Source of the DNA: Ceratodon purpureus
Taxonomy: Eukaryota; Streptophyta; Bryopsida; Pseudoditrichales; Ditrichaceae
Assembly (NCBI GenBank): GCA_014871385.1
Contig: CM026433.1
Location: 3,863,573-3,927,572, forward strand
Reading direction: 5' to 3'
Length of the DNA: 64,000 nt
Of this stretch, positions 3,054 through 62,410 are shown piece by piece. Within the stretch, counting starts at the first letter, position 1; each line of letters starts with the position of its first letter. The translations under genes were made by a program, and so were the position numbers. Under the pieces are notes generated by a model that did not search any database, was not told where the DNA came from, and saw only the letters and a list, made by a program, of their open reading frames with translations.

Positions 3054-6000
3054 ATGGAAGAGGGCATTCGAAGGAATCCACCGGGGGAGGCTCGCATCCT
3101 GTCTCGGAGAGCGAAATTACTCAGGCGGGAGTTGGCGTACGCGAGGCGGATGAGTTGGACGAAACTGCCATGTCCATGTCAAATCCACATGCGGGAGGCG
3201 GAACTCACTCTCGACTCATACCGGAGATGCCTGAGGGATAATGGAAGGCATGTGTGGTTCTATGGAAGGACAGAGGTATGTCTCATATTTTCCTTCGTGT
3301 GTTGATGTGGTGCTCATATGTAAGATTAACCACGACAACTCAGGAACTCGAATTCTGAAAATTCACTTAGAGCCTTCACCTTCCATGCACAGTAGAAGAA
3401 CACAATACCGATTGGTTGATGCTATGAATTGGGATATCGCATGTCATGAAGCACCTCCTGCCTAACAGTCGAAGATGTTCTGTTGTACCAGGGATACGAG
3501 GACGACGACTCCGACGTCGAGTGGGAGGACCACATTACGTGGTACTATGGAGCGCAGGCGAGAATGCGTCCAAACGCACTACGGCGGAGGGATTTAGACC
3601 CGGGGATTGATGTGACGCAGATGGTAGTCGAAGCTCATGATATCGTGGACAGAATTCATGAAGAGGTGATGGTGGACCAGGTTCATGCTGGAGAGCATCC
3701 GAGAGGAGATCCGCACCAACAGAGATTTCCGAATGGAGTCAGCGACGACTTAGGGCAGGAGAACAGAGCATCACCCGTAGGAGCAGGTCGGGGTGGGGGG
3801 ATTCCTAGTCCGGAGAGAAGCAGTGACTCGGCAATCCCCTTACGCGAGGAAGGTAATGCAGCAGGTGAAGACGGCCGTGACATCTCCGATGCACCGTCAG
3901 TCGACGTTTCTGATGATAGCTCTGGAGACGAGGGGGCGCACCAGTGGGGAGACTCTGACGACGAGACAGACGCTTCCATCGCGGCCCTAGAGGAGGCAGC
4001 GACTACTCCCTTGTTCCCAGGATCAGAATACTCTAGCATGGGAACGACGTATGTGCTTCTAAGTAGTGGAAAGCTGCACGGCTGTTCCGACGTCTACCTG
4101 GATGAGCTATTCCGGACCTTAAGCACTACCATTCTTCCTAAGCCGAATACCTTACCCAAGACTTACAGAGAGGCATCCGAGTACTTGAGGAAGTTGGGCC
4201 ACACTTACAAGTCAATCGACTCCTGCCCCAACAATTGTTGCCTGTATCGGAAGGACCTGAAGGACGCTCGTGTTTGTCCACATTGCAGGGCTCCGAGAAA
4301 AAGAAGAGCAGGGAGATCAGAAGTGCCGTTCAAGGTTACGAGGGCCTTCCCTCTTACTCCGCGACTCAAACGGATGTTTCGAAGTGCTCTTCAGGCAGCT
4401 GCAATGACATGGTGGGCGACCCTCGCAGTCACGGACGGTGTGATGTCTCATGTCTCTCACTCAGCGCAATGGAAGTGGATCTCGGAGAGATTTCATGCAG
4501 AGTTTGGCCATGACGATAGAAACGTGCGAATGGCTCTTGTTACAGATGGATTCAACCCCCACGCAGACAAGAGGAGTACTTACTCTATATGGCCTATTCT
4601 CCTCATGAACTACAACATTGCACCGTGGCTTACGACGAAGAATTATTTTATTATGTTGGGGATCCTAATCCCGGGTCCTAAATCCGTAACAGCTGATTAC
4701 TTCGATATCTATATGGAGCCACTGATTGAAGAACTCTTACATCTTTGGGAAGAAGGGGTGTACTGCATGGATGTCGCCCGTTATAAGGAGTCGTCTCATT
4801 TCATATTGAAGGCGATGATCATCTGGACAATTGGCGACTTCCCAGCCTACGGCGTTTTAGCTGGTTGCACAACCAATGGGTTCGTTGGCTGCCCAGTGTG
4901 CGGGGAGGGCTTTAGATCACGGCGTTCTAAGGTTTTACACAAGAACGTCTTCTGTGGATGTGCCCGCAGGTTCCTTGTTAGGGCAGACCATCCCTTCAGG
5001 GGCGACAGTTCAAACTTCATAGATGAGGAGCACCGAGTGGCCCCTACTCCCGTTACCGGAAGTGAAGCATTGCAGAGGGGAGAGGAGCGTGTCAGGTGGC
5101 TTAGAGAGTATGGAAGACCGAAGGAAAATGACCCCGTCAGAAGGCACGGCATCAAGCGAGTTTCCTCACTATATAGGCTTCCTTACTGGAAGGTAAGAGT
5201 GCCACTGAGCCGCCCCTGATCCTTGTTTACAGTCTGCACATGTTGTCTTCGACGTCTCGATATTGTGTGGCTCCAGTGGCTTCATGTCATGATCACTTGG
5301 GACTCTATGTCTAGACGTCGGGGTGATGTAGCTGTCTTAACATATGTCATTGAAGTTTAGCCCAGCCTTTTTTTTCGGTGTCGATAAACTTGCTGGTGAA
5401 TGGGGTTCGAACTACCAGGCTCTGTCCACCGGGACTTCTAACCATTCATTTAGCGTATGTTGTTCTCTTAGATAGCGTATAATGACTGCTGGAATTGGAT
5501 TATATGATCATGCTGTTCGACGACATGAATTGCACATGTCGATGCTCACCTGCGCATGATCTGGTACTGTGTGACCAGATGAATATGTAGCAGACTATGT
5601 TTCTCGGTGCAATGGTCAGTCGTGCTTGCTGATCCCCCATTCTTATATTTTCAGCTGAAGTCTCACAACTTTCTTCATGGTGCTGTGAATAGGAACTTCC
5701 AGTTAGGCACACACTCGACGTCATGCATGTGGAAAAGAATATAGCGGTTACAATTACTGGATTTTTACTCGGTGAAGAAGACACGATAGCCGTGCGAAAG
5801 GACCTACAGGATCAAGGGGTCATGCCTAGTCTGCATCTTGTGCGGGATGAGTTAACCGATAGCTACCTGATGCCGCAGGCACCCTACGTTCTTAGCCCCG
5901 GTGAGAAACGACGAGTCCTACAGACGATCAAGAATGTTCAAACACCGACTGGTCACTGTTCGAACTTGTCGAAGGTAGTTAACTTGGATAAAGGGAAGTT

Positions 6001-7734
6001 CCAGTTCATGAAAAGCCACGACTGGCATGTTGTTCTAGAGGAGGTGTTACCTGCCGCCTTGAGAGGGTCGCTCGCAGATGGACCTCGGGTAGCTGTTATT
6101 CGACTAGGGCACTGCTTCAAGAAGATTTGCGAGAAACAAGTAACCGTGAGTGAGCTCCCGAACTTATTGAACTACATTGCCGAAACTTGCTCTCTGCTGG
6201 AGATATACTTCCCACTGGCGTATTGGAATATAATGCCCCATCTCGTACTTCACTTGCCAAGGGAGCTTTACTGGTGCGGGCCCGTTCATGCCCGCTGGAT
6301 GTATAGCGTGGAAAGGTACTTAGGTCACTTGAAGAGCCTCGTGCGTAATAAGGCCAGACCCGAAGGATCCATTGCCCAGGGTTATATGTATACGGAAGCC
6401 ATCGGATTCGTCACAGAGCATTTCCAAATGTATCCAGGAGTTGCGAGACTACTCTGGGACATGGAAGAAGACGAACAGGACGCAGGGGAGGTGATGGAGG
6501 GGCAGGGTCGTGAGCAATTCTGGGACGACATTGAATTGAAGAAACTTCACGAACATGTTTTGCGTCACTGCGTCCACACGGAGGACCTCTATAGGTATGC
6601 TACCCTCATGCGTACTGTTTGGGTCAGTGTCATCGCATTGGTGACTAAATAAAGAGTGCTCTAACTGTTATTAAAACGAGTACGTAGAGTACTGTTTAAC
6701 TCTACAGCCGTTTCTGTTGCAGTATTTTCTCAGAGGAAAGAAGATCGCTTAGGGGTCGCAATCCAAGGAGACTCGTTCCATTCGCAGACTGGATCGAAGA
6801 GAGAGTGCGTCAAATGGGAATCGATGGTCATAACCCCTCTCCAGATCTGGTGACTATGTCCAGACTTCCGTCTCCGTACGTAAAGCATCATAACTCGATG
6901 TGGGCTTTCGGCTACCACTTCAGAACTGACGAAGAGGACGGGAAACAACACGTAACCTTCGACGCTGGAGTGGCAGCCATCATAAACCAAACCTGCCGTT
7001 CTTCAGTGTCGGATGTGAACCAAATTGAGTCGGAGCTCCTTTATGTAGGAATTATTAAGGACATACTGCGCGTTGACTACGGACATTTGAAGTTCAACGT
7101 ATTGAGGTGTTCATGGATCAAGCCTGATCTCGCAGGGGAGCCGACAATCAAAGTAGACCAAGACGGTTTTTGGCTCGTAAAACACGCTGCTCGACAGAGT
7201 GCAGACGTCGAGCCGTATCTCATGGCCGCACATGCCCGTCAGGTCAGTTAATCGACGCAATTCCCTTTCATTCGTACAGTCTCCCAATGTTTGCATTCCG
7301 GTCTAAGCTGAACCTCTGAATTGCATCATGAGCATCGTATCACTTATCACAGTCGTCATTATGGACTACCCAATGCCGAACAGGTTTATTTTGTCGATGA
7401 TCCATACAATGAAGAATGGAAGGTTGTGAGGTACAAGGAGCCGAGATCACGGCGGGTCACTGATGGGCTACCAGACGCTTCTCTTAGCGCACCAGGTCGG
7501 ACCACTGCCACCGAGCTTAACATTGCTAGAGGACAAGGCGAGGCTGCAGCTGAGCCTCAGAGGCAGCCAGTACTAGAGGCCGACGTGGTGCATGTCATGG
7601 CACACGAAGAGGTCGACGAAGAAGCAGCTTACATGCAAACGGACCACATCCATTCCGATTCAGAGGACGACATCCCCAACGACGAGGCAGCAGTTCCAGT
7701 GATTCCCGTACCTAATGCGATTGACGATGCATAA
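3054..7734 (+). CDS. CACTA (En/Spm) transposase, tnp2 type, five exons, about 1231 aa
   Basis: Proposed exons are 3054-3275, 3492-5192, 5693-6594, 6723-7242 and 7384-7734. All introns are GT-AG and the joined length is 3696 nt, an exact multiple of three. Exon 1 carries a transposase-associated-like cysteine motif (LPCPCQIH, then HVWFYG). Exon 2 carries the Tnp2 core: CCLYRKDL and CPHC near residue 310, DGFNPHADKRSTYSIWP near 425, ILIPGPKS, and CPVCGEGF near 540. The exon 2/3 junction restores LPYWK followed by ELPVRHTLDVMHVEKN, the usual continuation in this family. Exon 3 holds DUF4218 (VRNKARPEGSIAQGY near residue 860). Exons 4-5 hold DUF4216 (YVGIIKDILRVDYG; VYFVDDP after the last splice). 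No stop or frameshift was seen, so the gene looks potentially active. In this family the protein cuts and joins transposon ends in the nucleus. The first exon is the least certain. Confidence 0.85.
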
Positions 7735-13364: not shown

Positions 13365-13453
13365 AAAACCTGTCTTGTTCAAGAGGCAAAACGCAGGAAA
13401 AGAATACACCTTCATTTGCAGGGGTATGGGAAGATTTCTCCGACCTTTTGATC

Positions 13454-13735
13454 TCAATCGATGACCTCGGGCGCTGTGGCTTCTCTGAAAATTTCATGTT
13501 CCCTAGAAGTTTGAGTTGAGAGCTGCACATGAAAACTCTTAACCCCCAGGTTGGTCGTGGTGCAAAGCATTGTTATGCAGACGAGCATTTTAGCTATGCC
13601 TGGCGTGTACTGTTCCTGATTATATTGATCACCGTTTGTCTGGCCATGTCCTGACGTCCTTGTAATATCTTGATTCCTGGCAGAGAAGATTGTCCAAACC
13701 GTTGCTGCATCACGAACCCCGAATGTTGGACTCAT
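13454..13735 (-). CDS. Small hypothetical ORF conserved in both inverted-repeat arms, 93 aa
   Basis: ATG-started frame (MSPTFGVRD), 93 residues. The mirror copy at 62038-62319 has the same length and only about two residue changes. A short hydrophobic stretch (MLVCITMLCTTT) lies in the second half. No family was recognised. Conservation may only reflect the recent duplication. It lies divergent to the receptor kinase. Confidence 0.25.
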   Translation of the reverse strand: MSPTFGVRDAATVWTIFSARNQDITRTSGHGQTNGDQYNQEQYTPGIAKMLVCITMLCTTTNLGVKSFHVQLSTQTSREHEIFREATAPEVID

Positions 13736-13947
13736 GACTCTCTCAGATCGACATTGAATGTCTCCTGCCTCTCTCTCAAGGGCTGAAGTCTCAACCTTTA
13801 CATAGAAGAGCCGTTCACATACACACTCTCAATCCAATGCGTCCACTAATGATTATACGAGCGTGCCCTGCGGCATCAGGTGAAAAACAATCAGGATCCA
13901 CGTAACCTCAAGCCTAAATCACGACAGATCCTCTCCTTGCATTGTCA

Positions 13948-14376
13948 TCAACCGCGAATTAATTTCAGTAATGTAAGAATCCACGTAACCTTCAAATTGT
14001 ACCTCAAAACAATGGCAACAATTTTGCCTTTTAAATGAATCTCTTCCATGCCCTCGAAAAATTCCAGCAAATGAAGGATGCAAACACTCAAGGCCACTTT
14101 GTGCGATCGAGACAGCAACAGTCCAACGTTATTAAACGTGCTATCTATCAATAATGTGCCTAACACCGAATGCCTCTCGAAACTATCTCTAAACCGAACA
14201 AGAAAATGTGCACATTGTGCACAGCCAAGATCCTTCTCCCACTGCGACACATGATTTCCATTTGTCAAGCTGTACTTTTCGGTTGGCGAACCGCAAGCAA
14301 GACGTTTAGCATAATTAGGAGCTGCATCGTCTGCAGATGTCAATTCTGGTGTTCGGTCTGTTTTCGAAGCCTCCAA
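13948..14376 (-). pseudogene. Unrecognised ORF fragment, intact in this arm and broken in the other
   Basis: About 142 codons are open without a good ATG at the start, so it is likely an exon or a gene remnant. It includes SVLGTLLIDSTFNNVG and a Leu-rich helix-like segment. In the right arm (61390-61823) the same frame is interrupted by TGA where this copy has TGG (about 61529). I do not recognise the protein. Confidence 0.3.
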
Positions 14377-14408
14377 AATAAATCCCTGACTGTTAACATC
14401 TACTGAAA

Positions 14409-15561
14409 TTGGTGACGTTCACACAGGACTCGGAATCATTAGATTCGAGAAACAACGTCACTGCGAAGGTCGCACAACACCCAAGGAACAGTCGCGTCGG
14501 GATTTCGGGAACCGATCACTCAGCGGCCAACGACTTGAATGGCGGCGAGCTACACATGATGGCATCTTGGGCTGAATATTGCATTGGGAATCTTCGAATC
14601 AGGGACCCGCACAGTCGCGGAGTCGCGGAAGCACATCTCGCTTGTGAACGAAGCCAGGTGCGAGGCGCCGTTGCTACAGCCCCGATGCGGAGATGCGCAT
14701 ATTAACCGCATGTGGCCTGCGGGCTGCGACTCGATCCGGTTGGCGTGCATGCGCTTCCGGCCCCTCTCCCACCTCGCCGGAGCCTGGCTGTGCCACTACT
14801 TAACCGGCAAGGGCGGCACTCATCAGCTGCTATGGGGCGCTCCATTACATCTGAGTTGCGAGGTGCCGTCGAACTCCAACTTACGATCTCACTTGGTGGA
14901 CTGCGCCCTCTTGGGTGGGTAATAGGAGGAGGACTCTGTTTGCGGGCGACTTCTGCTCCGAGCTGTGGGCCGTCACACGCAAGTTGGGTGGGATCCGGAA
15001 GGATGTGAGCTCGACACTGATCAACATAAGAGTGCTGTCGATTGCTGCGGCAGTGGTTGTTGGACGGGATCAGGAGGGCCAGAGCTCTGCACCAGTTTCG
15101 GAATCAGGTACGTGTGCATCAGGGGCGCTAATTCCGTAGCTGGGTGGTGGTGGTGGCAACATGCATCATGGCCCGTGGGGAGGTCTGCTTCGGCTGTTCT
15201 GGCATGGGTGCTCTCACCGATTGCAGTAACGCTCACTGTGGATGGTGTAGTTTACTTGACAATGTGCGAATCGGAGATCGGTCAAGTTGACGGGCGAATT
15301 TATGTGATCGTCAGTGTAGATCACAAGCAGCGGCGAGGGGCTCTAATTAGGTTGTATAGTGCTGGTCGTGTTTTCAAGCTTCTGTAGGTTGTCTGAGAAT
15401 GTCGTAGGCGACGAGCGGCTGGAGGTCGTGTGGGTCTTGCTCCACTTCGCATACACGACACTTACTTGGCATTTTAGAGATATCTGAAAGCTCCTGGATT
15501 GGACGCTGCGAATTCTGATAAGATTTCCGATCGGGGAAGTGGCCAGCGTTCATCTGCAAAC
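14409..15561 (+). other. Upstream region and 5' leader of receptor kinase copy 1
   Basis: This region holds several overlapping open frames without a clear start, for example 14584-14922 and 14915-15139. The matching part of the right arm carries small insertions and deletions, so these frames are not conserved as coding. It should contain the promoter and leader of the receptor kinase; I could not point to a convincing TATA box. A segment of it (about 14464-14606) recurs as an isolated fragment at 24284-24406. Confidence 0.4.
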
Positions 15562-18500
15562 ATGGGTGACACGACGCAGGTAGTACCGAGATGGGCCTTG
15601 AGCGTTCTGGCTTTGTTCACTAGCGCTGTGTGCATGGCGGCTGGTTTGACGCCAGATGGGTCGGCTTTGATAGAGTTCAAGAATGCCTTAACTGTCATGT
15701 CTCCGCTGCTTGAGAGTTGGAATGCCTCGGATGCGTCGCCATGTTCATGGGGCGGCGTCATCTGCACGGACAGCGGGCGTGTGCGGAACATCACCTTGGT
15801 GGCACAGGAACCTGCGCTGGAAGGCAATATTTCATCCAGCCTCGGAAAGTTGGAATTCTTGGAGGGCCTTGGGCTTGAACAGAATAAGCTGTCTGGGAGC
15901 ATCCCTCCCGAGCTTGGGAACTTGAGTAGCCTCAGGATGTTGTCACTATCCTCGAATGCATTGTCGGGAGAGATCCCTCCCGAGCTCGGCAGTTGTAGGA
16001 GCCTTGCCAACATTTCGGTAGCATTCAACTCCCTCTCTGGAAATATACCCGAGGTGATCTACAAGAAGTTGAATCTTACATACTATGACGTGAGCAACAA
16101 CAATTTCTCGGGTGACATTACCACAGGTACGGCGCCATTTCACCCAGTACTGTGACTCAGATTGCTGAAAAGATTCTAGGTTACAGATGGAATTCCGCTG
16201 CAGCCCAAGAACTTAGAGAGCCTGTTTAGGTTGAAGTGTTTACGTTCCATTTGAAACCTCAAGATAACCTTGTCCAGGGTGAGGATAATCAACGTATCGC
16301 TTCAAGGAGTGGTTTTCTCATTCCTGTTCTCTCAATTTGCAGCTTTGGATGATTTGTCCAAGATGCCCACCATCGAGAGTATAAATATGAACAACAATAG
16401 CTTCACAGGGACCTTGCCACCGTCCATTGGAAATGCCACTTTCCTCAATTATCTGAACCTCGATCTTGGGGTTTACGGCCCGGTGGCTGAGGTATCTTTG
16501 GGAAGAATTCCAAAGGAGCTTGGCAAATTAGTGCATATGAAGTTACTCGGGCTTGGAGGCAATTTCACAGGAGAAATTCCACCTGAGCTTCAAAATATCC
16601 CTTCGCTCGAAAATCTTCTGCTTGAAAACTCCAGTTTGGAAGGTGAAATTCCACCTTGGATTGGAAACTGGACGTCGCTGAAATTTCTATACCTGAGGAG
16701 TAGTCAATTCAATGGTAGCATCCCTCCTACTCTGGGCAATCTCGTCAATCTAACTGTGCTGGATATAGAAATCAATAGCCTCACAGGCCCAATCCCCCAG
16801 AGCTTCGCATATCTCAAAAACCTCAAGACTCTTGCCTTGAACGGAAATAGCCTCACCGGACAGATCCCTCCAGACTTGTCCAGAATGCTCACAAGTCTAG
16901 AGTGGCTGGGCCTGTTTTCTAATAACATGTCGGGGTCCATACCTCATGACTTTGGGAAGTTCATGCCCAATCTCATACGCTTCATGGTCACAAACAACTT
17001 CTTCAATGGAACCTTGCCGGATGGATTGTGCAATGGTGGAAAACTGTTGTGGTTGACCACAGGTAATAACAGCTTTGAAGGTGCCATTCCGACGTCTCTT
17101 GCGAGCTGTCCAAGCTTGGTAGTTGTCAACTTTCAAGATAATCAGTTTACCTCAATCCCTGATGGTTTTGGTCGTAATTCTTCAGTACAAACTCTCAGAG
17201 CTGCACGAAACCGATTCACGGGGCGACTACCACTTGGACTTGGAGCTAACAGCCAACTAGCCTACCTGGATGTGAGCGAGAACTCGTACACGGGGGACAT
17301 CTCCCAACTGGAGTTCTCCCAATTGGCACAGAACCTGTCAGTGCTGATGCTGGCAAAGAATAACTTCACAGGCGAGATCCCGGCTGCCATGGCCCTCTGC
17401 AAATTGCTGTACGTGGTGGACTTGAGCTACAATTCCCTGACTGGAACTGTTCCTCTTGCACTGGGAAACCTCTCCAGTCTGGAGGAGCTCCAGCTCCAGG
17501 GCAATAAGCTCACAGTGCTCCATCCAAGCATCTACAATATGGGCTTTGCCGCTACACTCCGCCTGCTCAACCTTGCGGAGAACCCCTGGAACACTTCCAT
17601 TGCAACCGAGATAGGGTCCCTGGCAATATTGCAGACCCTCAACTTGAGTCACGGGGGTTACACGGGGCCCATCCCATCTTCACTGGCGCAGCTGTCGCAG
17701 CTGGAGGTCCTGGACCTCTCGCACAACGACCTCACAGGCGAAGTGCCGAGTGTGCTGGGAGAGCTGATGACATCTCTTACGTCCGTGAATATTTCCTTCA
17801 ACCGCCTCACGGGATCGTTACCGCCCGCATGGGTGAAGTTCCTCAACGCGGACCCAGCTTCTTTCCGGGGCAACCCAGGTTTGTGCGTCCATTACGACGC
17901 CAACAACGTGTGCACTGAGATACAAAGTAGGCTCCCGGTACGCGCTGACCAGCGGAAGGGGCAGCTCTCAGTCAGGGCGATCGTGGGCGCGGCACTGGGT
18001 GCCGTTGCCTTGGCCGGCCTGTTGGCGTATGTCGCATTCCGCCTCTGGAGGCGCAGACTCATGCAAACAAAACGGGACGCAGAGGACGAGGTATCTGAGA
18101 TGAACATGACGAATGAGGCCTGGTCGCTCACGTTTGACGACATCTTGAGCGCCACGGAAAACCTGAGCGACAAGTTCATCGTCGGAAGAGGGGCCCATGG
18201 AGTGGTGTACAAGGTGAAGGGCATCACTGAAACGTATCCGTGCATGGCGGTGAAGAAGATCGTGTTCACGGATAGCAAACTGTCCACAGTGCCTCACAAA
18301 TGCTTCTGGGCTGAGGTGAAGACTGTGGGAAAGGCCAGGCATCGGAACTTGGTCACGCTGCTGGGGTTCATAAAGCGGGACAACGTGGGGCTCCTGTTGT
18401 ACGATTATGTCCACAGGGGAAACCTCCATGCCGCCTTGCACAGCACGGAGCAAGGCATTGCACTGCGGTTGACCTGGGAGGCCAGACTTCGAATTGCCAA

Positions 18501-19383
18501 GGGTGTCGCCCACGGATTGGCCTACCTTCACCACGATCATGATGTTCCAATTGTGCACCGGGACATCAAGTCCTGCAACGTGCTTCTGGACGATGACTTG
18601 GAGCCCCACATCTCGGATTTTGGCCTCGCCAAGGTACTGGGCATGCAACAAGGACCCAAACCGTGGCTATCCACTCAGAATGTCATGGGAACCTTCGGCT
18701 ACATTCCTCCGGGTAAGTCCGTGTTGCAAACTGTGTGCTTCTGTCATTCTGTTTCGACATGGACGAGATACGGGTGCCAGCTTGTGTAGCACGCCACATT
18801 TATTAAGATTGATGGTTTACATGTATGTGTTTTGCTGCACTCTGCAGAGGCGGGGTTTCGCCTAGCAGCGACGCCACAGCTGGATGTGTACTCTTACGGA
18901 GTGTTGCTGCTGGAGCTCTTGACTGGAAAAGAGCCCACCCATGATCCCACCTACGGCGAGGACTTTCATGTCGTTGCATGGGTGAAGGAAGCTGTGGAGC
19001 TCGAGGGGGGACGGATGAGCAAGTCCGTCCTCGACCCAACAATGTTGAATCCCAAGTATTCACCCACCACGGACATACATGTAGATGAGATGCTGCGCGT
19101 GGGAGAGATCGCCTTGCTGTGCACCCAGAGTAACCCTGCAGACCGGCCAACAATGAGGGACGTGGAAAACGTGTTCAATATTCTCTTCAAATGTGCCGAC
19201 AAGAGGAACGCCGTCCGGGACCAGAAGGGGGACGGGGTGAAGACCCCGAAGGAAAGGTGCCACGACGAAAGCAGCGACGAGAGTAGCGATGCGAGCTTGA
19301 GTAGCGACCCTGCCACAAATTATGATGGCAGCGAGGGGCGGGAGAGCTGCTGGTCTGGTGAAAGGGCTGGTGATGTGCTATAA
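15562..19383 (+). CDS. LRR receptor-like serine/threonine kinase, copy 1 (1156 aa, three exons)
   Basis: Exons are 15562-16126, 16343-18712 and 18848-19383; both introns are GT-AG with phase 1 and the joined length is exactly 1157 codons. The ATG at 15562 was chosen because it starts a signal peptide (residues 1 to about 28). An LRR N-terminal cap with paired cysteines (SPCSWGGVIC) follows, then about 20 LRRs of the LxxLxLxxNxLxGxIPxx type. A transmembrane helix lies at about 732-755 with an RLWRRR stop-transfer. The kinase has VGRGAHGVV (from 802), Lys826 in MAVKK, HRD with Asp929, and DFG at 947-949. The splice restores GYIPPEAG in the activation-loop end. All catalytic residues are present, so it should be an active RD kinase at the plasma membrane, resembling plant peptide receptors of subfamilies such as LRR-XI. 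The ligand is unknown. Residues 201-474 differ strongly from copy 2; the rest is nearly identical. Confidence 0.95.
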
Positions 19384-19679
19384 TTCCAATCATGAGATTT
19401 CCACACACAATGTTGAGCCTTATTCTGATCCGTTGTAGGCACTTTCGACTCCATGTCCGTGTACACTATGTACATTAAATATTAATCAGATAGTGTAAAT
19501 GCAAATTTCCAACTCGCTTCACTATGGATCCTTCCGATGACCCAACAGGCTTCCACGATATCGGTATGAACGCCCAATTCGGTAAACGTGGTTGGGGTGC
19601 AACAGCAGCATCATCACCAAAGTTTGCAAGAACATGGAAAGCGTGTGCACGGCTAAACATGAAAGAACGCTCTTCCAGC
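19384..19679. other. 3' flank of receptor kinase copy 1
   Basis: Probable 3' untranslated and intergenic sequence, also present in the right arm (about 56110-56428). No separate gene was seen. Confidence 0.4.
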
Positions 19680-21318
19680 CAGAAGATGACATTCATGATT
19701 CACTCTAATATGTGATACTACTAGATAGAGGGTTGGTTCATTGATCCCAACCAAACATGAACCATTGCATGTCAGTTTTGAGACTGCTGTTAACTCAGGG
19801 GAAACTTCTGTCTTGTACTTCTTACTGTCTTCTGAAGTGTTTGTTGTTGCCTCGAATATTGTTCACATTTTTCGCGCAAACTGTTGTGTTTTGCACCAGC
19901 TTCATAAACTTAGGGATGCACAAAATTAGAATACTTTGCCTCTCAGAACGGTTTTGTCTATTTCGAACAGCTTGAAGTCTTGTCAAACACCCATCGTTTT
20001 CTATGTGCTTCAACTAACCAAATTTGGGCGTTCAGTCGTGCTACGCGTTCAGCGAACCAAACCAAGAACATGTTCCACATTGATGAGAGTGGAAAATTAT
20101 CTAAGTAAGCTTCAAGACAGTGACACTAGAACCCACAGATAGTAGTCGCCGGTATCTTGTTCTGAGCCACTTCACGTACTCTGATATCAACTCGTTGAAA
20201 AATGTGGAGTTCGCATTCTGCACGCCAAAGTTTTCTTGCTCAAGGAGAATGCCAAAAGTTATATGTCCCTGCATACAGAGTCCAAAGAAGATGACCAGCT
20301 ACGCCCATGAGCTCTACACTGGTGCAGAAAAGACAAATAGGCGAGTACCTCGTTTTGTTCTAAATACTTGCAAGAGGAAACAACACGAAAATGCAGATGA
20401 GTGATTCAACGAGCAGCAAATCAACTCTAATTTGAGATGTTCAAGGTTATTTACAGGAGCAACTGGTGTTGAGCAGGATATTAAGAAGTGAATCTAGCAT
20501 TTAAATGCGAAACCAAGTTCACTGTTAGCATTTTTATTAACGCCGTTCCTGCCACCAAGTGCGGATGACCCCTCAACGTTCACCATTTGGCAACGGTTAC
20601 AACCTCCCACAACCTACCATCAAGCTGTCACGTTAGTTCTTGGAACTTTATTCACGGCAGTTGATCAATACTGACATGAATTACAGGAGGCAAGAGGAAT
20701 TCTGAAGGACGTACTCCAAATTTCTGGCTGCAAATATCAACACTCTGCCATATTCTGTCCTCATCATGAGCATCAGCTCCCGATACCACAATGTAACTTT
20801 GGCCTGAAGCGCAGTGCATCAACTGTAAGAGCCTGAGAAACCATATCCTGACTCACATCATTTGCAATTGAAGCCATGGATACAAACGAAGGATTTTTTA
20901 GTGAAAGCATCTGGCGAACAAAACCGAAGAATTTCTTGAATCTTGTGAAGAAACGTATTCCTCTCTTGAATATAATGCCCAGCAAAACAGCTATAATTCC
21001 TTTCTCATTAATGAGACGAGGATAAAGACTGATCACGTGATCAACAAGTCTGAGAAACATATGCAACTACTGTCCCAAGAAAAAAAGTCACCTGCATGAA
21101 GAGCTGCAGGAAGTTGCAACTGGACGATTCAGCTCATCAACGTTCGCTATTCTTGGACACAAGCAGGACCTGGCCCTCGTTGGCAAAGCTCAAGTCACGT
21201 GTACTAGAGTCACTTAATTGTCGAGAAACTGATCGACCACTTTGGGATTTCAACGGAAATAAGTTACTCTAATTGGTTCTTTCCTCACAATTAAGGGTGC
21301 AAGGCAGAGTCCGGGGAG
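19680..21318 (+). repeat. Left arm of a 4.4-kb palindrome
   Basis: About 1.64 kb repeated in inverted orientation at 22473-24122. The inner ends read AAGGGTGCAAGGC...CCGGGGAG and their reverse complement; the outer end is the segment CCAGAAGATGACATTCATGA. The arms differ at only a few positions over several hundred bases compared, so the event is recent or the arms are homogenised. Confidence 0.85.
20773..21060 (-). CDS. Hypothetical ORF in palindrome arm, 95 aa
   Basis: ATG at 21060 (MFLRLVDHV). It encodes a basic, hydrophobic protein with a predicted membrane-like stretch (GIIAVLLGIIF) followed by Arg/Lys/Phe-rich sequence. The mirror frame at 22731-23018 encodes the same protein. I do not recognise the family. 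It could be a leftover exon of a larger gene. Confidence 0.25.
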   Translation of the reverse strand: MFLRLVDHVISLYPRLINEKGIIAVLLGIIFKRGIRFFTRFKKFFGFVRQMLSLKNPSFVSMASIANDVSQDMVSQALTVDALRFRPKLHCGIGS

Positions 21319-21609
21319 TTCTGTGAGCCATCCAGCAGATTTCCTTGTAACTTTCAGGCACCTTGGTTTTCTTCAAAATTGCCCGGAAGTGTGCCTGGAA
21401 GTTGCAAAACTGCCCGGTTAATGTCCTAGAAGTTCATTTCTCTACCGGTGGCATTTCCGCCACTGTAAAATTCCAATCGGAAAAAATCCTTCAAATGAGA
21501 ATTGCATTCGGTTTCATTTATTTTTTATTTTTATTTTTATTTTTTTTGAAGCAGGATTCAAAATTATTATGAATTCAGATTCTCAATTCTCAATTCAACA
21601 ACTAAGGAT

Positions 21610-22216: not shown

Positions 22217-22472
22217 TATTGAATCATCCCCCCATAATAAAAATTTCCTACAAAGTCTAAACCTAGTCGGCTACCCGCCAAATAAAAAAAATTTGAATCG
22301 GTAATTTTCCTCCATATTCACCATGTGACCGGCCAAAAAGCCGACACTTCATTTTTTCCTCCGGTTCTATTTCCGAAAATTATTTTTTCCAACCGGAACC
22401 CTTGCCTAAACTTATGAATCTCAATCGGAAATTTTCAAAAGTAACCGGCTAGTTTGTAACTAACTGCCGGTA

Positions 22473-24122
22473 CTCCCCGGACATTGCCTTGCACCCTTAA
22501 TTGTGAGGAAAGAACCAATTAGAGTAACTTATTTCCGTTGAAATCCCAAAGTGGTCGATCAGTTTCTCGACAATTAAGTGACTCTAGTACACGTGACTTG
22601 AGCTTTGCCAACGAGGGCCAGGTCCTGCTTGTGTCCAAGAATAGCGAACGTTGATGAGCTGAATCGTCCAGTTGCAACTTCCTGCAGCTCTTCATGCAGG
22701 TGACTTTTTTTCTTGGGACAGTAGTTGCATATGTTTCTCAGACTTGTTGATCACGTGATCAGTCTTTATCCTCGTCTCATTAATGAGAAAGGAATTATAG
22801 CTGTTTTGCTGGGCATTATATTCAAGAGAGGAATACGTTTCTTCACAAGATTCAAGAAATTCTTCGGTTTTGTTCGCCAGATGCTTTCACTAAAAAATCC
22901 TTCGTTTGTATCCATGGCTTCAATTGCAAATGATGTGAGTCAGGATATGGTTTCTCAGGCTCTTACAGTTGATGCACTGCGCTTCAGGCCAAAGTTACAT
23001 TGTGGTATCGGGAGCTGATGCTCATGATGAGGACAGAATATGGCAGAGTGTTGATATTTGCAGCCAGAAATTTGGAGTACGTCCTTCAGAATTCCTCTTG
23101 CCTCCTGTAATTCATGTCAGTATTGATCAACTGCCGTGAATAAAGTTCCAAGAACTAACGTGACAGCTTGATGGTAGGTTGTGGGAGGTTGTAACCGTTG
23201 CCAAATGGTGAACGTTGAGGGGTCATCCGCACTTGGTGGCAGGAACGGCGTTAATAAAAATGCTAACAGTGAACTTGGTTTCGCATTTAAATGCTAGATT
23301 CACTTCTTAATATCCTGCTCAACACCAGTTGCTCCTGTAAATAACCTTGAACATCTCAAATTAGAGTTGATTTGCTGCTCGTTGAATCACTCATCTGCAT
23401 TTTCGTGTTGTTTCCTCTTGCAAGTATTTAGAACAAAACGAGGTACTCGCCTATTTGTCTTTTCTGCACCAGTGTAGAGCTCATGGGCGTAGCTGGTCAT
23501 CTTCTTTGGACTCTGTTTGCAGGGACATATAACTTTTGGCATTCTCCTTGAGCAAGAAAACTTTGGCGTGCAGAATGCGAACTCCACATTTTTCAACGAG
23601 TTGATATCAGAGTACGTGAAGTGGCTCAGAACAAGATACCGGCGACTACTATCTGTGGGTTCTAGTGTCACTGTCTTGAAGCTTACTTAGATAATTTTCC
23701 ACTCTCATCAATGTGGAACATGTTCTTGGTTTGGTTCGCTGAACGCGTAGCACGACTGAACGCCCAAATTTGGTTAGTTGAAGCACATAGAAAACGATGG
23801 GTGTTTGACAAGACTTCAAGTTGTTCGAAATAGACAAAAACGTTCTGAGAGGCAAAAACTATTCTAATTTTGTGCATCCCTAAGTTTATGGAGCTCGTGC
23901 AAAACACAACAGTTTGCGCGAAAAATGTGAACAATATTCGAGGCAGCAACAAATTAAACACTTCAGAAGACAGTAAGAAGTACAAGACAGAAGTTTCCCC
24001 TGAGTTAACAGCAGTCTCAAGACTGACATGCAATGGTTCATGTTTGGTTGGGATCAATTAACCAACCCTGTATCTAGTAGTATCACATATTAGAGTGAAT
24101 CATGAATGTCATCTTCTGGCTT
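22473..24122 (-). repeat. Right arm of the 4.4-kb palindrome
   Basis: Inverted copy of 19680-21318. The match ends at about 24122, within the segment where the left arm continues toward the receptor kinase 3' flank. One small insertion relative to the left arm lies around 23945-23960. Confidence 0.85.
22731..23018 (+). CDS. Hypothetical ORF in palindrome arm, 95 aa (mirror copy)
   Basis: Same protein as the minus-strand ORF at 20773-21060, starting at ATG 22731. No amino-acid difference was seen. Function unknown. Confidence 0.25.
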   Translation: MFLRLVDHVISLYPRLINEKGIIAVLLGIIFKRGIRFFTRFKKFFGFVRQMLSLKNPSFVSMASIANDVSQDMVSQALTVDALRFRPKLHCGIGS

Positions 24123-24283
24123 GAAATACTACAATGGCCCGAGGTGGTGCAAGTGTAGGTTCAGGAGAAAATCGGGCAGCGGACTCGGAACTGGACGATG
24201 AAGGGGAGTGCCACCTAGGAACCAGCGAGGGACTGAAATTTTTGTTCACAAAAGGACTTGGAATAAGCACTGCGACCTCACAA

Positions 24284-39923: not shown

Positions 39924-41104
39924 CCCCTAAACGCCTAAACGACCAAAAACTGGTCGATTTCATTCTTTGACCGTTCGCAGCCGTCATTCAGTTGACAGTT
40001 TTTCATACGGGTAATTTTTTTTGGAATCTAGAGGGTGAAATCTATCCAAATCACTTTTTTTTACTGTAAAATTCAATGTTGCTGATTTTTAGTGGCACTT
40101 CAAAGTGGAAATGATCAATACCGCGCACTCACATTTTTCCAACTTGAGGTTGCTTGGTTTGCAAGGGCAGTGGTGTGGGAGGGGAAAGAGTGCGGTAGAA
40201 AAAAAAAATGACTGCTGCCCGGCAAGTGCTTCGGATGGGGGTGGGCAGATTGTGGTTCGAAGGGGGCAGTTTGAAAGGTTCAAAAAAGCAATCCAAGTAG
40301 GCAGCCACGGTGGAGGAGGGAGCATATCCCTCCAAAACAGTAGAAACCACATGGCACAACCACATTCAAATAAATCAATTCAAAATGGGAGGGGGGGGAG
40401 GAGTGTAACCCCAAGTGCTTTCAAGCTCTACACTCCTAGACCTGCAGAATCCAAAGCCAGCACTAATGGGGTGAGGGAGGGGGATCTTCATAGCCACCAA
40501 ATCAATTTGCAATCAAGGTGGTGAGAAGTAGAAAATTCAATCCTAGCCTCCAAAAACGGAATTCACTGACAATACCAAGTGCACCAAGAGGGGTAAGGCC
40601 GTCATTTGCAAGTTCGTCATCAAAGGCACACAATTGCAGAGAATACCAGGCACTTGCACAAAATGAGCAATCAAGCTACAAAAATTTAGAGAGCAAAGAA
40701 GAGTCCATCAGTTTTTGCACTATTCAGTTGGGAGGAGAGACTACATGCTCCTGCGAGCAGAGTGAACAGGTTGAGCTTTTCATTGTCAAGTGTATTCTGA
40801 GAGCAAGGTGATTGAAATCATGCTGTGAGAGCCGAGGAGTTCCGTGAGGGCGCAGGCAGAGGAATTCGGTGATTGTGTTTGCAGGGGCCGGTGAGAGGTC
40901 GGGGAGGGACAGACCTAGCGAGAGAGGAAGGGAGACGATCTGCAATCACATAAAGGGAACCGTTAGTGGGGAGAGTACGGGGACAGAGAGGGGAGAGATT
41001 TGCATGCAGAGTGAGGAGAGAAAGAGTCGGGAGGGAGCTGTGAGTGACAGAAGGTGAGAGAAAAAGGCCAAAAAAAAAAATCCAATTGGGAAAGGGGAGT
41101 GGAA
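39924..41104. other. piggyBac left subterminal region
   Basis: About 1.2 kb from the left terminus to the minisatellite. Short frames (for example 40105-40524) show no recognisable domain. It probably contains transposase-binding sequence and the promoter. Confidence 0.4.
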
Positions 41105-55665: not shown

Positions 55666-56428
55666 CTTTGCACGCATGTACTTGCTTATCTAAAACCTTA
55701 CTTTAGAATGGCGTCGTTTCCACTTAGAAAAGATTTACTTTATTTAGTATTTATGTTTATGACACAAATGGATCGATCCAGCTTAACTGACGAGTTTCTG
55801 GTTACCGTTCATGATCCACAGAAATATTGGGAACTGGACGAAAACGTTCCGAGAGGCACAGAATTCTAATTTCCTGCATCCCTAAGTTTATGGAGCTGCA
55901 ACAGCATGCGCGAAACATCTGAACAATATTCGAGGCAGCAACAAACACTTCAGAACACAATAAGAAGTACAAGACAGAAGTTTCCCCTGAGTTAACAGCA
56001 GTCTCAAGACTGACATGCAATAGTTCATGTTTGGTTGGGATGAATGAACCAACCCTGTATCTAGTAGTATCACATATTAGAGTGAATCATGAATGTCATC
56101 TTCTGGCTGGAAGAGCGTTCTTTCATGTTTACCCGTGCACACGCTTTCCATGTGCTTGCAAACTTTGGTGATAATGCTGCTGCTGTTGCATCCCAACCAC
56201 ATTTACCAAATTGGGCGTCCATACGGACATCGTGGAAGCCTGTTGGGTCATCGGGAGGATCCAAAGTGAAACGAGTCGGAAATTTGCATTTACACTATCT
56301 GATTGATAAATGTACATAGTGAACATGGACATGGAGATGAAACTGCCTGCAACGGAGAAAAAGGCTCCACATTGTGTGTGGAAATCTCATGATTGGAATT
56401 ATCCCAAATCACCAGCCCTTTCACCAGT

Positions 56429-59400
56429 TCAGCAGCTCTCCCGCCCCTCGCTGCCATCATAATTTGTGGCAGGGTCGCTACTCAAGCTCGCATCGCTACT
56501 CTCGTCGCTGCTTTCGTCGTGGCACCTTTCCTTCGGGGTCTTCACCCCGTCCCCCTTCTGGTCCCGGACGGCGTTCCTCTTGTCGGCACATTTGAAGAGA
56601 ATATTGAACACGTTTTCCACGTCCCTCATTGTTGGCCGGTCTGCAGGGTTACTCTGGGTGCACAGCAAGGCGATCTCTCCCACGCGCAGCATCTCATCTA
56701 CATGTATGTCCGTGGTGGGTGAATACTTGGGATTCAACAGTGTTGGGTCGAGGACGGACTTGCTCATCCGTCCCCCCTCGAGCTCCACAGCTTCCTTCAC
56801 CCATGCAACGACATGGAAGTCCTCGCCGTAGGTGGGATCATGGGTGGGCTCTTTTCCAGTCAAGAGCTCCAGCAGCAACACTCCGTAAGAGTACACATCC
56901 AGCTGTGGCGTCGCTGCTAGGCGAAACCCCGCCTCTGCAGAGTGCAGCAAAACACATACATGTAAACCATCAATCCTAATAAATGTGGCGTGCTACACAA
57001 GCTGGCACCAGTATCTCGTCCATGTCGAAACAGAATGTTAGAAGCACACAGTTTGCAACACGGACTTACCCGGAGGAATGTAGCCGAAGGTTCCCATGAC
57101 ATTCTGAGTGGATAGCCACGGTTTGGGTCCTTGTTGCATGCCCAGTACCTTGGCGAGACCAAAATCCGAGATGTGGGGCTCCAAGTCATCGTCCAGAAGC
57201 ACGTTGCAGGACTTGATGTCCCGGTGCACAATTGGAACATCATGATCGTGGTGAAGGTAGGCCAATCCGTGGGCGACACCCTTGGCAATTCGAAGTCTGG
57301 CCTCCCAGGTCAACCGCAGTGCAATGCCTTGCTCCGTGCTGTGCAAGGCGGCATGGAGGTTTCCCCTGTGGACATAATCATACAACAGGAGCCCCACGTT
57401 GTCCCGCTTTATGAACCCCAGCAGCGTGACCAAGTTCCGATGCCTGGCCTTCCCCACAGTCTTCACCTCAGCCCAGAAGCATTTGTGAGGCACTGTGGAC
57501 AGTTTGCTATCCGTGAACACGATCTTCTTCACCGCCATGCACGGATACGTTTCAGTGATGCCCTTCACCTTGTACACCACTCCATGGGCCCCTCTTCCGA
57601 CGATGAACTTGTCGCTCAGGTTTTCCGTGGCGCTCAAGATGTCGTCAAACGTGAGCGACCAGGCCTCATTCGTCATGTTCATCTCAGATACCTCGTCCTC
57701 TGCGTCCCGTTTTGTTTGCATGAGTCTGCGCCTCCAGAGGCGGAATGCGACATACGCCAACAGGCCGGCCAAGGCAACGGCACCCAGTGCCGCGCCCACG
57801 ATCGCCCTGACTGAGAGCTGCCCCTTCCGCTGGTCAGCGCGTACCGGGAGCCTACTTTGTATCTCAGTGCACACGTTGTTGGCGTCGTAATGGACGCACA
57901 AACCTGGGTTGCCCCGGAAAGAAGCTGGGTCCGCGTTGAGGAACTTCACCCATGCGGGCGGTAACGATCCCGTGAGGCGGTTGAAGGAAATATTCACGGA
58001 CGTAAGAGATGTCATCAGCTCTCCCAGCACACTCGGCACTTCGCCTGTGAGGTCGTTGTGCGAGAGGTCCAGGACCTCCAGCTGCGACAGCTGCGCCAGT
58101 GAAGATGGGATGGGCCCCGTGTAACCCCCGTGACTCAAGTTGAGGGTCTGCAATATTGCCAGGGACCCTATCTCGGTTGCAATGGAAGTGTTCCAGGGGT
58201 TCTCCGCAAGGTTGAGCAGGCGGAGTGTAGCGGCAAAGCCCATATTGTAGATGCTTGGATGGAGCACTGTGAGCTTATTGCCGTGAAGCTGGAGCTCCTC
58301 CAGACTAGATAGGTTTCCCAGTGCAAGAGGAACACTTCCAGTCAGGGAATTGTAGCTCAAGTCCACCACGTACAGCAATTTGCAGAGGGCCATGGCAGCC
58401 GGGATCTCGCCTGTGAAGTTATTCTTTGCCAGCATCAGCACTGAGAGGTTCTGTGCCAACTGGGAGAACTCCAGTTGGGAGATGTCCCCCGTGTACGAGT
58501 TCTCGCTCACATCCAGGTAGGCTAGTTGGCTGTTAGCTCCAAGTCCAAGTGGTAGTCGCCCCGTGAATCGGTTTCGTGCAGCATAAAGCTGTCGTAGTAA
58601 TGAATTACGACCAAAACCATCAGGGATAGACGTAAGCTGATTATCCTGGAAGCCGGCAACTTGCAAGCTTGGACAGCTCGCAAGAGACGTCGGAATGGCA
58701 CCTTCAAAGCTGTTATTACTTGCAGCGAATATATAAAGTTTTCCACCATCGCACAATCCATCCGGCAAGGTTCCATTGAAAAAGTTGTTTGAGACCATGA
58801 AGAATGTGAGATTGGGCATGAACTTCCCAAAGTCATGAGGTATGGGCCCCGACATGTTATTGGAATACAGGCCCAGCCACTCTAGACTTGTGAGCATTTT
58901 GGACAAGTCTGGAGGGATCTGTCCGGTGAGGCTATTTCCGCTCAATGCAAGAAAGATAAGGTTTTTGAGAAATGCGAAGCTCTGGGGGATTGGGCCTGTT
59001 AGGCTATTGATTTGTAGATTCAGCTCAGTTAGATTGACGAGATTGCCCAGAGTAGGAGGGATGCTACCATTGAATTGACTGCTCCTCAGCTTTAATAATT
59101 TCAGCGACGTCCAGTTTCCAATCCAAGGTGGAATTTCACCTTCCAAACTGGAGTTTTCAAGAACCAAAAATTCGAGCGAAGGAATATTTCGAAGCTCAGG
59201 TGGAATTTCTCCTGTGAAATTGCCTCCAAGCCCGAGGAACTTCATATGCTCTAATTTGCCAAGCTCCTTTGGAATTCTTCCCAAAGATACCTCAGCCACC
59301 GGGCCGAAAACCCCAAGATCGAGGCTCAGATAATTGAGGAAAGTGGCATTTCCAATGGACGGTGGCAAGGTCCCTGTGAAGCTATTGTTGTTCATATCGA

Positions 59401-60220
59401 TTCTTTCGATGGTGGGCATCTTGGACAAATCATCCAAAGCTGCAAATCGAGAGAACAGGAATGAGAAAACCACTCCTTGAAGCGATACGTTGATTATCCT
59501 CACCCTGGACAAGGTTATCTTGAGGTTTCGAATGGAACGTAAACACTTCAACCTAAACAGCCTCTCTAAGTTCTTGGGCTGCAGCGGAATTCCATCTGTA
59601 ACCTAGAATCTTTTCAGCAATCTGAGTCACAGTACTGGGTGAAATGGCGCCGTACCTGTGGTAATGTCACCCGAGAAATTGTTGTTGCTCACGTCATAGT
59701 ATGTAAGATTCAACTTCTTGTAGATCACCTCGGGTATATTTCCAGAGAGGGAGTTGAATGCTACCGAAATGTTGGCAAGGCTCCTACAACTGCCGAGCTC
59801 GGGAGGGATCTCTCCCGACAATGCATTCGAGGATAGTGACAACATCCTGAGGCTACTCAAGTTCCCAAGCTCGGGAGGGATGCTCCCAGACAGCTTATTC
59901 TGTTCAAGCCCAAGGCCCTCCAAGAATTCCAACTTTCCGAGGCTGGATGAAATATTGCCTTCCAGCGCAGGTTCCTGTGCCACCAAGGTGATGTTCCGCA
60001 CACGCCCGCTGTCCGTGCAGATGACGCCGCCCCATGAACATGGCGACGCATCCGAGGCATTCCAACTCTCAAGCAGCGGAGACATGACAGTTAAGGCATT
60101 CTTGAACTCTATCAAAGCCGACCCATCTGGCGTCAAACCAGCCGCCATGCACACAGCGCTAGTGAACAAAGCCAGAACGATCAAGGCCCATCTCGGTACT
60201 ACCTGCGTCGTGTCACCCAT
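56429..60220 (-). CDS. LRR receptor-like serine/threonine kinase, copy 2 (1146 aa, three exons)
   Basis: Exons on the minus strand are 60220-59656, 59439-57070 and 56934-56429, with the same intron positions and phases as copy 1 and 1147 codons in all. Signal peptide, LRR cap, about 20 LRRs, transmembrane helix and an RD kinase (GRGAHG, MAVKK, HRD, DFG) are intact. Outside residues 201-474 it differs from copy 1 at only about four residues: Ser14 to Ile, one Thr/Ser, one Gln/His and one Met/Leu. Inside that block there are about 41 differences, concentrated at solvent-exposed beta-strand positions of the LRRs. The C-terminus is 10 residues shorter because TGC TGG of copy 1 reads TGC TGA here. 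Both copies therefore appear functional but with different ligand-facing surfaces. Confidence 0.95.
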
Positions 60221-61380
60221 GTTTGCAGATGAACGCAGGCCACTTCCCTGATCGGAAATCTTATCAGAATTCGCAGCGTCCAATCCAGGAGCTTTCAGAT
60301 ATCCATAAAATGCCAAGTAAGTGTCGTGTATGCGAAGTGGAGCAAGACCCACACGACCTCCAGCCGCTTGTCGCCTACGGCATTCTCAGACAACCTACAG
60401 AAGCTTGAAAACACGGCCAGCACTATACGACCTAATTAGAGCCCCTCGCCGCTGCTTGTGATCTACACTGACGATCACATAGATTCGCCCGTCAACTTGA
60501 CCGATCTCCGATTCGCACATTGTCAAGTAAACTACACCATCCACAGTGAGCGTTACTGCAATCGGTGAGAGCACCCTTGCCAAAGCAGACCTCCCCACGG
60601 GCCATGATGCATGTTGCCACCACCACCGGCCAGCTACGGAATTAGCGCCCCCGATGCACACGTACCTGATTCCGAAACTGGTGCAGAGCTCTGGCCCTCC
60701 TGATCCCGTCCAACAACCACTGCCGCAGCAATCGACAGCACTCTTATGTTGATCAGTGTCGAGCTCACATCCTTCCGGATCCCACCCAACTTGCGTGTGA
60801 CGGCCCACAGCTCGGAGCAGAACTCGCCCGCAAACAGAGTCCTCCTCCTATTACCCACCCAAGAGGGCGCAGTCCACCAAGTGAGATCGTAAGTTGGAGT
60901 TCGACGGCACCTCGCAACCCAGATGTAATGGAGCGCCCCATAGCAGCTGATGAGTGCCGCCCTTGCCGGTTAAGTAGTGGCACAGCCAGGCTCCGGCGAG
61001 GTGGGAGAGGGGCCGGAAGCGCATGCACGCCAACCGGAGTCGCAGCCCGCAGGCCACATGCGGTTAATATGCGCATCTCCGCATCGGGGCTGTAGCAACG
61101 GCGCCTCGCACCTGGCTTCGTTTGCAAGCGAGATGCGCTTCCGCGACTCCGCGACCGTGCGGGTCCCTGATTCGAAGATTCCCAATGCACTATTCCAGCC
61201 CAAGATGCCATCCTGTGAAGCTCGCCGCCATTCAAGTCGTTGGCCGCTGAGTGATCGGTTCCCGGAATCCCGACGCGACTGTTCCTTGGGTGTTGTGCGA
61301 CCTTCGCAGTGACGTTGTTTCTCGAATCTAATGATTCCGAGTCCTGTGTGAACGTCACCAATTTCAGTAGATGGTATCAG
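60221..61380 (-). other. Upstream region and 5' leader of receptor kinase copy 2
   Basis: Counterpart of 14409-15561 with scattered substitutions and small deletions, for example near 60575 and 61040. Frames in it are not conserved. It should contain the promoter. Confidence 0.4.
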
Positions 61381-61389
61381 TCCGGGGTT

Positions 61390-61823
61390 TTATTTCGGAG
61401 GCTTCGAAAACAGACCGAACACCAGAATTGACATCTGCAGACAATGCAGCTCCTAATTTTGCTAAACGTATTGCTTGCGGTTCGCCAACCAAAAAGTACA
61501 GCTTGACAAATGGAAATCATGTGTCACAGTGAGAGAAGGATCTTGGCTGTGCACAATGTGCACATTTTCTTGTTCGGTTTAGAGATAGTTTCGAGAGGCA
61601 TTCGGTGTTAGGCACATTATTGATAGATAGCACGTTTAATAACGTTGGACTGTTGCTGTCTCGATCGCACAAAGTGGCCTTGAGTGCTTGCATCCTTCAT
61701 TTGCTGGAATTTTTCGAGGGCATGGAAGAGATTCATTTAAAAGACAACATTGTTGCCATTGTTTTAAGGTACAATTTGAAGGTTACGTGGATTCTTACAT
61801 TACTGAAATTAATTCGCGGTTGA
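61390..61823 (+). pseudogene. Unrecognised ORF fragment, broken copy
   Basis: Mirror of 13948-14376. The frame is stopped by TGA at about 61529 after HVSQ, then continues with VLGTLLIDSTFNNVG to 61823. Confidence 0.35.
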
Positions 61824-62037
61824 TGACAATGCAAGGAGAGGATCTGTCGTGATTTAGGCTTGAGGTTACGTGGATTCTGATTGTTTTTCACCTGATGCCG
61901 CAGGGCACGCTCGTATAATCATGAGTGGACGCATTGGATTGAGAGTGTGTATGTGAACGGCTCTTCTATGTAAAGGTTGAGAGACTTCAGCCCTTGAGAG
62001 AGAGGCAGGAGACATTCAATGTCGATCTGAGAGAGTC

Positions 62038-62319
62038 ATGAGTCCAACATTCGGGGTTCGTGATGCAGCAACGGTTTGGACAATCTTCTCTGCCAGGAAT
62101 CAAGATAATACAAGGACGTCAGGACATGGCCAGACAAACGGTGATCAATATAATCAGGAACAGGACACGCCAGGCATAGCTAAAATGCTCGTCTGCATAA
62201 CAATGCTTTGCACCACGACCAACCTGGGGGTTAAGAGTTTTCATGTGCAGCTCTCAACTCAAACTTCTAGGGAACATGAAATTTTCAGAGAAGCCACAGC
62301 GCCCGAGGTCATCGATTGA
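62038..62319 (+). CDS. Small hypothetical ORF conserved in both arms, 93 aa (mirror copy)
   Basis: ATG at 62038, same length as its counterpart at 13454-13735, with only two visible residue changes (Ile/Asn and Tyr/Asp). Unknown function. Confidence 0.25.
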   Translation: MSPTFGVRDAATVWTIFSARNQDNTRTSGHGQTNGDQYNQEQDTPGIAKMLVCITMLCTTTNLGVKSFHVQLSTQTSREHEIFREATAPEVID

Positions 62320-62410
62320 GATCAAAAGGTCGGAGAAATCTTCCCATACCCCTGCAAATGAAGGTGTATTCTTTTCCTGCGTTTTGCCTCTTGAACAAGA
62401 CAGGTTTCAT

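Follow-up and report, generated by a model that had tools for sequence, protein, structure and literature searches.

What has changed between two copies of a receptor gene that are almost identical along most of their length, and what would that change mean for what they bind? The window, the whole stretch of 64,000 nucleotides analysed here (C13:3863573-3927572 of Ceratodon purpureus, with 362.5 Mb of genome in 151 contigs searched), contains an inverted duplication of a 6.6 kb block, the arms of which are 96.6% identical by self-BLAST of the window. Each arm carries one copy of the same leucine-rich repeat (LRR) receptor kinase gene, c1 and c2 (Table 1).

An inverted pair of receptor kinase genes

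Pfam profiles LRRNT_2, LRR_1/LRR_8 and Pkinase scored above their cut-offs in exons 1 and 2, the architecture of an LRR receptor-like kinase (LRR-RLK), and the joined reading frame was open to its end in c1, in c2 and in a third copy on contig C4 (C4a). By eye, the translation contains the catalytic motifs GRGAHGVVYK, AVKK, IVHRDIKSCN and DFGLAK in the predicted kinase, together with hydrophobic stretches that mark a putative signal peptide and a putative transmembrane helix. In 19351-19383, c1 reads TGG at the codon that is a TGA stop in c2 and in the C4 copy, leaving c1 10 residues longer. Judged by their translations, both c1 and c2 look like intact LRR receptor kinases, and they belong to a small, expanded family. 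Collecting the paralogs in the genome, as the preliminary description of this DNA had proposed, gave at least 10 family loci by protein search among the 75 of 713 candidates that were scored, with scores down to 405 bits before a drop to 175 bits for the next locus.

Table 1. Positions in the window of the duplicated arms, the exons of both gene copies and their hypervariable (hv) blocks.
Feature	Position	Strand	Basis
Left arm of 6.6 kb inverted duplication	13366..19964	+	self-BLAST
Right arm of 6.6 kb inverted duplication	55831..62407	-	self-BLAST
c1 exon 1: LRRNT_2 and LRR 1-4 behind an N-terminal hydrophobic stretch resembling a signal peptide (by eye)	15562..16126	+	splice signals, reading frame; Pfam LRRNT_2 E=8.5e-13
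c1 exon 2: LRR 5-24, a transmembrane stretch seen by eye, and the start of the kinase	16343..18712	+	reading frame; Pfam LRR_1, Pkinase
c1 exon 3: remaining kinase and C-terminal tail	18848..19383	+	reading frame; Pfam PK_Tyr_Ser-Thr 4.7e-05
c2 exon 1	59656..60220	-	alignment map; Pfam LRRNT_2 in ORF 59627-60352
c2 exon 2	57070..59439	-	alignment map; open frame
c2 exon 3, frame ending 10 residues before that of c1	56399..56934	-	alignment map; translation
hv block of c1, LRR 6-16, change islands at exposed strand positions	16438..17211	+	alignment, change counts
hv block of c2	58571..59344	-	alignment map

The best phmmer matches of exon 2 were GSO1, PEPR1, FLS2 and MIK2, and the best Foldseek matches were the ectodomains of MIK2, GSO1, RGFR1, FLS2 and HSL1. 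MIK2, GSO1, PEPR1, FLS2 and RGFR1, ligand-binding receptor kinases of plants with solved ectodomains, are thus the closest likenesses of the c1/c2 receptor in sequence and fold, but the listed fold matches share only 22-30% identity and long LRR solenoids match one another generally, and any orthology is putative.

Change at the exposed face of the repeats

Positions 16378-17199 of c1 align to 59404-58583 of c2, inverted as the preliminary description had it, and our recount of 75 bases over 822 bp and 41 residues agrees with the approximately 76 and 41 given there. About four residue differences had been placed in the rest of the protein; four are indeed found there (S14I, T557S, Q574H and M1044L), but four more columns differ at the C-terminal tail, so that eight of the 49 differing residue columns of the whole gene lie outside this interval. 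The tail columns fall at window positions 19351, 19354, 19375 and 19378, the first being the c2 stop codon and the other three lying beyond it. Base divergence is likewise concentrated, at 68/615 in 16591-17205 compared with 8/248 in 16343-16590. It is 1/565 in exon 1, 10/1507 across 17206-18712 and 7/536 in exon 3, with 3/216 and 4/135 in the introns and 9/284 and 22/312 in the near 5′ and 3′ flanks, and the transmembrane and kinase part carries one nonsynonymous and four silent differences. The non-coding parts of the two arms diverge unevenly, at 4/600 in 13366-13965 versus 22/283 in 19384-19672 (p = 3e-8).

We defined exposed positions as x2, x3, x5, x7 and x8 of the LxxLxLxxN strand in the 24 repeats, set beforehand from the known LRR register. 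An even spread of changes along the gene, which the preliminary description had named as counting against its reading, is not what the alignment gives: within hv the residue is altered in 25 of 55 exposed codons and in 14 of 203 others (p = 1.8e-10), placing the change on the strand face. At least one exposed residue differs between c1 and c2 in every repeat from 5 to 16, bearing out the claim of changes in at least ten successive repeats, and over all repeats 25/60 exposed positions are changed in repeats 6-17 versus 3/40 in the others (p = 0.0002). The islands themselves are only partly as described: the clustering stands, but the intervening identity runs from 12 to 72 nt rather than 40-60 nt, and nine of the 20 clusters are single changes.

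The same positions stand out when C4a is included. Across the three comparisons of this trio (c1, c2 and C4a), changes in LRR 6-17 number 21/36 at x2, 22/36 at x3, 23/36 at x5, 13/36 at x7 and 10/36 at x8, and 9/36 at L6, with 0/36 at each of N9, G13, P16 and x20. Buried positions of repeats 6-17 are changed in 5/48 cases between c1 and c2. An AlphaFold2 model built from two sequences, of middling quality (mean pLDDT 67.9), has the strand beginning at x3 in 19 of 20 repeats. Of the 43 c1/c2 residue differences in the modelled stretch, 27 would lie inside predicted strands (p = 4e-7). The c1/c2 changes are clustered at concave-face positions, and this exposed face would be the binding site.

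Recurrence in the family and probable selection on the exposed codons

The third copy, C4a, shows the ligand-face pattern of c1 and c2 in the same repeats. A second close pair of the family, independent of the trio, is formed by C12a (C12:12.17 Mb) and C10 (C10:14.17 Mb). Between these two genes pN is 0.114 at exposed sites versus 0.024 in the remaining LRR sites, buried-strand ones included (p = 2e-7), and exposed residues are changed at 16/54 positions in repeats 6-17 versus 3/40 in the others (p = 0.009), with 4/43 buried positions changed in repeats 6-17. The individual columns that vary in the trio and in this pair do not coincide beyond chance (p = 0.6).

Two LRR pairs shared between contigs C4 and C7 were included as controls. 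One pair has a single nonsynonymous difference, and the other has none in the compared codons and differs by one residue in length; being nearly identical, both are uninformative as controls. LRR loci near-identical across two contigs (L068/L069 and L070/L071; C4:8.82 and 9.18 Mb, C7:14.49 and 14.59 Mb) are either a recent copy or an assembly duplication. The family loci L014-L023 differ from one another by whole LRR repeats, with extra repeats relative to c1 in C11, C12b, C4b and C7b, for example.

We fitted codon models, a check that the preliminary description had suggested, in our own fixed-site implementation, and found omega above 1 at exposed sites in most, though not all, settings. For the trio, with codons split into hv exposed, hv other and outside and with one silent rate, omega was 7.9 for hv exposed, 0.63 for hv other and 0.20 for outside codons (exposed against 1, p = 1e-28); with free silent rates the values were 2.5, 0.28 and 0.29 (exposed, p = 0.009), and silent rates in the hv exposed and hv other classes were 4.4 and 3.2 times that outside (heterogeneity p = 5e-8). 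Pooling all 24 repeats of the trio gave an exposed omega of 2.6 (p = 4e-9) under one rate and 1.6 (p = 0.14) under free rates. For c1/c2 alone it was 13.5 under one rate and 2.0 under free rates, the latter not significant (p = 0.12), with silent rates 12 and 5 times that outside (heterogeneity p = 7e-6). For C12a/C10 the exposed omega was 2.0 (p = 0.012) under one rate and 4.7 (p = 0.014) under free rates, and silent rates in this pair showed no heterogeneity (p = 0.17).

Diversification of the ligand face is thus well supported. We attribute it to diversifying selection, which would act on the exposed concave-face residues of LRR 6-17, because of the excess of changed exposed codons, the complete conservation of the scaffold positions, the recurrence in a second pair and omega above 1 in most settings. 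Against the full strength of this reading, the free-rate omega is not significant for c1/c2 alone or for the pooled trio, and the trio and C12a/C10 do not vary at common columns. The scaffold, the transmembrane stretch and the kinase would have been held almost constant between the copies. With these parts constant and the exposed face diversified, c1 and c2 would probably share a signalling output and differ in the ligand bound. We infer a changed ligand specificity of c1 relative to c2, and a ligand that is most likely a peptide; an immune role for the receptor pair is possible.

A further rival is that constraint was relaxed, that one copy is decaying or that the assembly is at fault; transposase genes lie close by, and under a free silent rate c1/c2 taken alone is compatible with an omega of about 1. 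We nevertheless regard this as scarcely credible, given open frames in all three copies of the trio, the ratio of one nonsynonymous to four silent differences in the transmembrane and kinase part, retention of the scaffold Asn, Gly and Pro, and the return of the pattern in C4a and in C12a/C10.

Silent divergence in the islands and its possible sources

Silent differences are raised inside the c1/c2 islands as well, a feature absent from the preliminary description, whose picture of coding change on a near-identical pair is incomplete because silent sites in the islands are several-fold more diverged. Silent divergence in hv strands, in hv convex parts and outside hv was 0.171, 0.058 and 0.017 for c1/c2, 0.31, 0.12 and 0.07 for c1/C4a, and 0.35, 0.18 and 0.08 for c2/C4a. 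In the c1/c2 islands it starts at 0.106 and drops to 0.025 once a site is 10 nt or further from any coding change, compared with 0.013 outside. In the two comparisons with C4a, even sites at least 13 nt away from a coding change keep values of 0.14 (p = 0.087) and 0.19 (p = 0.01), compared with 0.07-0.08 outside. The trio therefore shows silent divergence that peaks near the selected sites and is low away from them, and C12a/C10 does not: no silent excess was found at its strands (p = 0.84).

One history would be a recent duplicate on which selection sorted ordinary single-base changes. This fits C12a/C10, and multi-hit codons, which account for 13 of the 33 exposed codons changed in c1/c2 and six of 21 in C12a/C10, are ambiguous evidence and do not disprove it, as dense single changes also yield such codons. 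It leaves the silent excess of the trio unexplained, however, in the face of the silent-rate heterogeneity in both the trio and c1/c2. Simulation with single-base steps and a shared silent rate also disagreed with it, giving 5.7 silent-only codons in hv of c1/c2 where 16 were seen, a number reached in none of 3000 simulations; with free silent rates 15.3 were expected. Adjacent differences across codon boundaries numbered seven, compared with 1.9 simulated under a shared rate (p = 0.003) and 3.0 under free rates (p = 0.034). Given the silent excess in the trio islands, point mutation and selection on a recent duplicate are therefore not the whole story, and we consider this account very unlikely. 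Either conversion around selected sites or clustered mutation fits the excess better.

Sites that record the relationships among the copies bear on when the excess arose. At silent or non-coding positions, the ratio of c1/c2 differences to C4a-only differences is 0.60 in hv and higher still, 0.84, in the 3′ flank; the introns (0.29), the 5′ flank (0.28) and the other coding parts (0.26) are lower. Compared with the other coding parts, p = 0.1 for hv and p = 0.01 for the 3′ flank. In hv there are 25 C4a-only silent sites, as against 42 in all remaining coding sequence, which is far longer. Some of the excess therefore belongs to all branches, and some may reflect added depth between c1 and c2. 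Among shared-derived sites, 13/27 in hv versus 2/15 outside conflict with the grouping of c1 with c2, although such conflicts can also come from homoplasy under recurrent selection on the same codons. Tests for conversion between the copies gave p = 0.077 for the longest run and p = 0.026 for switches. The silent ratio, for which the hv contrast is weak, the conflicting sites, the C4a divergence that stays raised 13 nt or more from coding changes and the uneven non-coding divergence of the arms together suggest that hv retains old divergence, older than its surroundings.

A local process could instead have produced the blocks directly: clustered (multi-nucleotide) mutation or micro-conversion would alter stretches of about 10-20 nt at the strand codons, silent and coding sites alike, and selection would then act on the outcome. 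The excesses of silent-only codons and adjacent differences over simulation favour such a process, as do the disappearance of the c1/c2 silent excess about 10 nt from coding changes and the numerous C4a-only silent sites in hv; fading within so short a distance is narrow for ordinary conversion tracts. Yet C12a/C10 has the same coding excess without a silent excess at its strands, and the C4a comparisons remain raised past 13 nt, so we hold this process to be unlikely though worth weighing. Its stronger form, a strand-focused process that changes ligand-face codons in blocks and thereby re-tools the binding face in the germline faster than point mutation, strikes us as distinctly unlikely.

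Gene conversion might also have brought the blocks in from LRR genes elsewhere in the genome, which would be in keeping with their block-like make-up: each packs 4 to 11 differences specific to one lineage into 8-26 nt. Against the window and 32 other loci, though, none of the 16 lineage-specific blocks gave better matches than randomised blocks did (smallest fraction 0.17, 60 randomisations each). A genome-wide search with two blocks, at up to three mismatches and so informative on donors only at close match, found for the first block, besides the gene itself, one place with two mismatches and 19 with three (control, 16 hits), and for the second 13 places with three mismatches (control, three hits, that is, fewer). 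Neither search produced a convincing donor among paralogs, and we judge import highly improbable; donors may since have been lost or may be present in other individuals.

For the silent peaks of the trio our first choice is exchange with selection, and clustered mutation comes second. The peaks would most likely stem from exchange of sequence, by which the surroundings were homogenised or recombined, with selection keeping the divergent face, and short multi-nucleotide changes may have added to it. Taken as a whole, we think it likely that diversifying selection on the ligand face, a shared output with differing ligands, and exchange with selection at the silent peaks together account for c1 and c2.

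The main pattern is probably of a known kind, of which c1/c2 would be a moss member. Lineage-specific expanded LRR-RLKs of angiosperms are reported to be affected mainly at four repeat positions (PMC5380761, crediting Fischer et al. 2016), four LRR-RLK subfamilies show positive selection in a sample with one moss (PMC5296948), and LRR domains occur among expanded clusters with positive selection (PMC4049390). As described there, the angiosperm cases (PMC5380761, PMC5296948) share with ours recent paralogs and change in the LRR domain at few repeat positions; ours differ in coming from a moss, in the use of sites chosen beforehand instead of sites detected by site models, and in one group with raised silent sites in the islands. 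Binding sites of NLRs have been predicted from variability on the LxxLxLxx array (PMC8226289), and highly variable NLRs likewise vary at the variable LxxLxLxx positions of the concave face; unlike our cell-surface kinases, compared as paralogs of one genome, they are intracellular and were compared between individuals. Gene conversion combined with selection is described as leaving peaks or islands of divergence in red/green opsin exon 5 (PMC3924837) and in the GOT1 paralogs of a copepod (PMC3728101). On that description these too are close paralogs that diverge little other than near sites where difference is favoured, silent sites included, but the peaks here are narrow and track successive LRR strands, and conversion is putative. 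Among the titles and abstracts listed by our literature search, with subscription papers mostly outside its scope, none dealt with this moss family or with the pattern in moss LRR-RLKs, and none gave a moss example of narrow silent peaks at successive LRR strands.

The two genes form a natural matched pair, with the same scaffold and kinase and 25 changed exposed residues in LRR 6-16, which makes ligand specificity in a non-flowering plant directly testable by block swap. The narrow silent peaks offer a fine-scale case for separating conversion-with-selection from clustered mutation.

The rest of the window holds several other features. An Rfam scan of the window gave nothing at gathering scores, and Pfam found no match in the long reverse frame 40946-42256 of a purine-rich tandem array at 41070-41853 (periods of 145 and 291 bases). 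A DDE_Tnp_1_7 transposase, presumably of the PiggyBac type, lies between the copies at 42332-45349 (+), and a Transposase_21 frame with a DUF4218 frame lies upstream at 3483-5219 and 5723-6652 (+). Directly 3′ of c1 is a 1.65 kb inverted repeat (arms 19673-21319 and 22472-24125, 98.8% identical), the outer end of which overlaps the duplicated 6.6 kb block.
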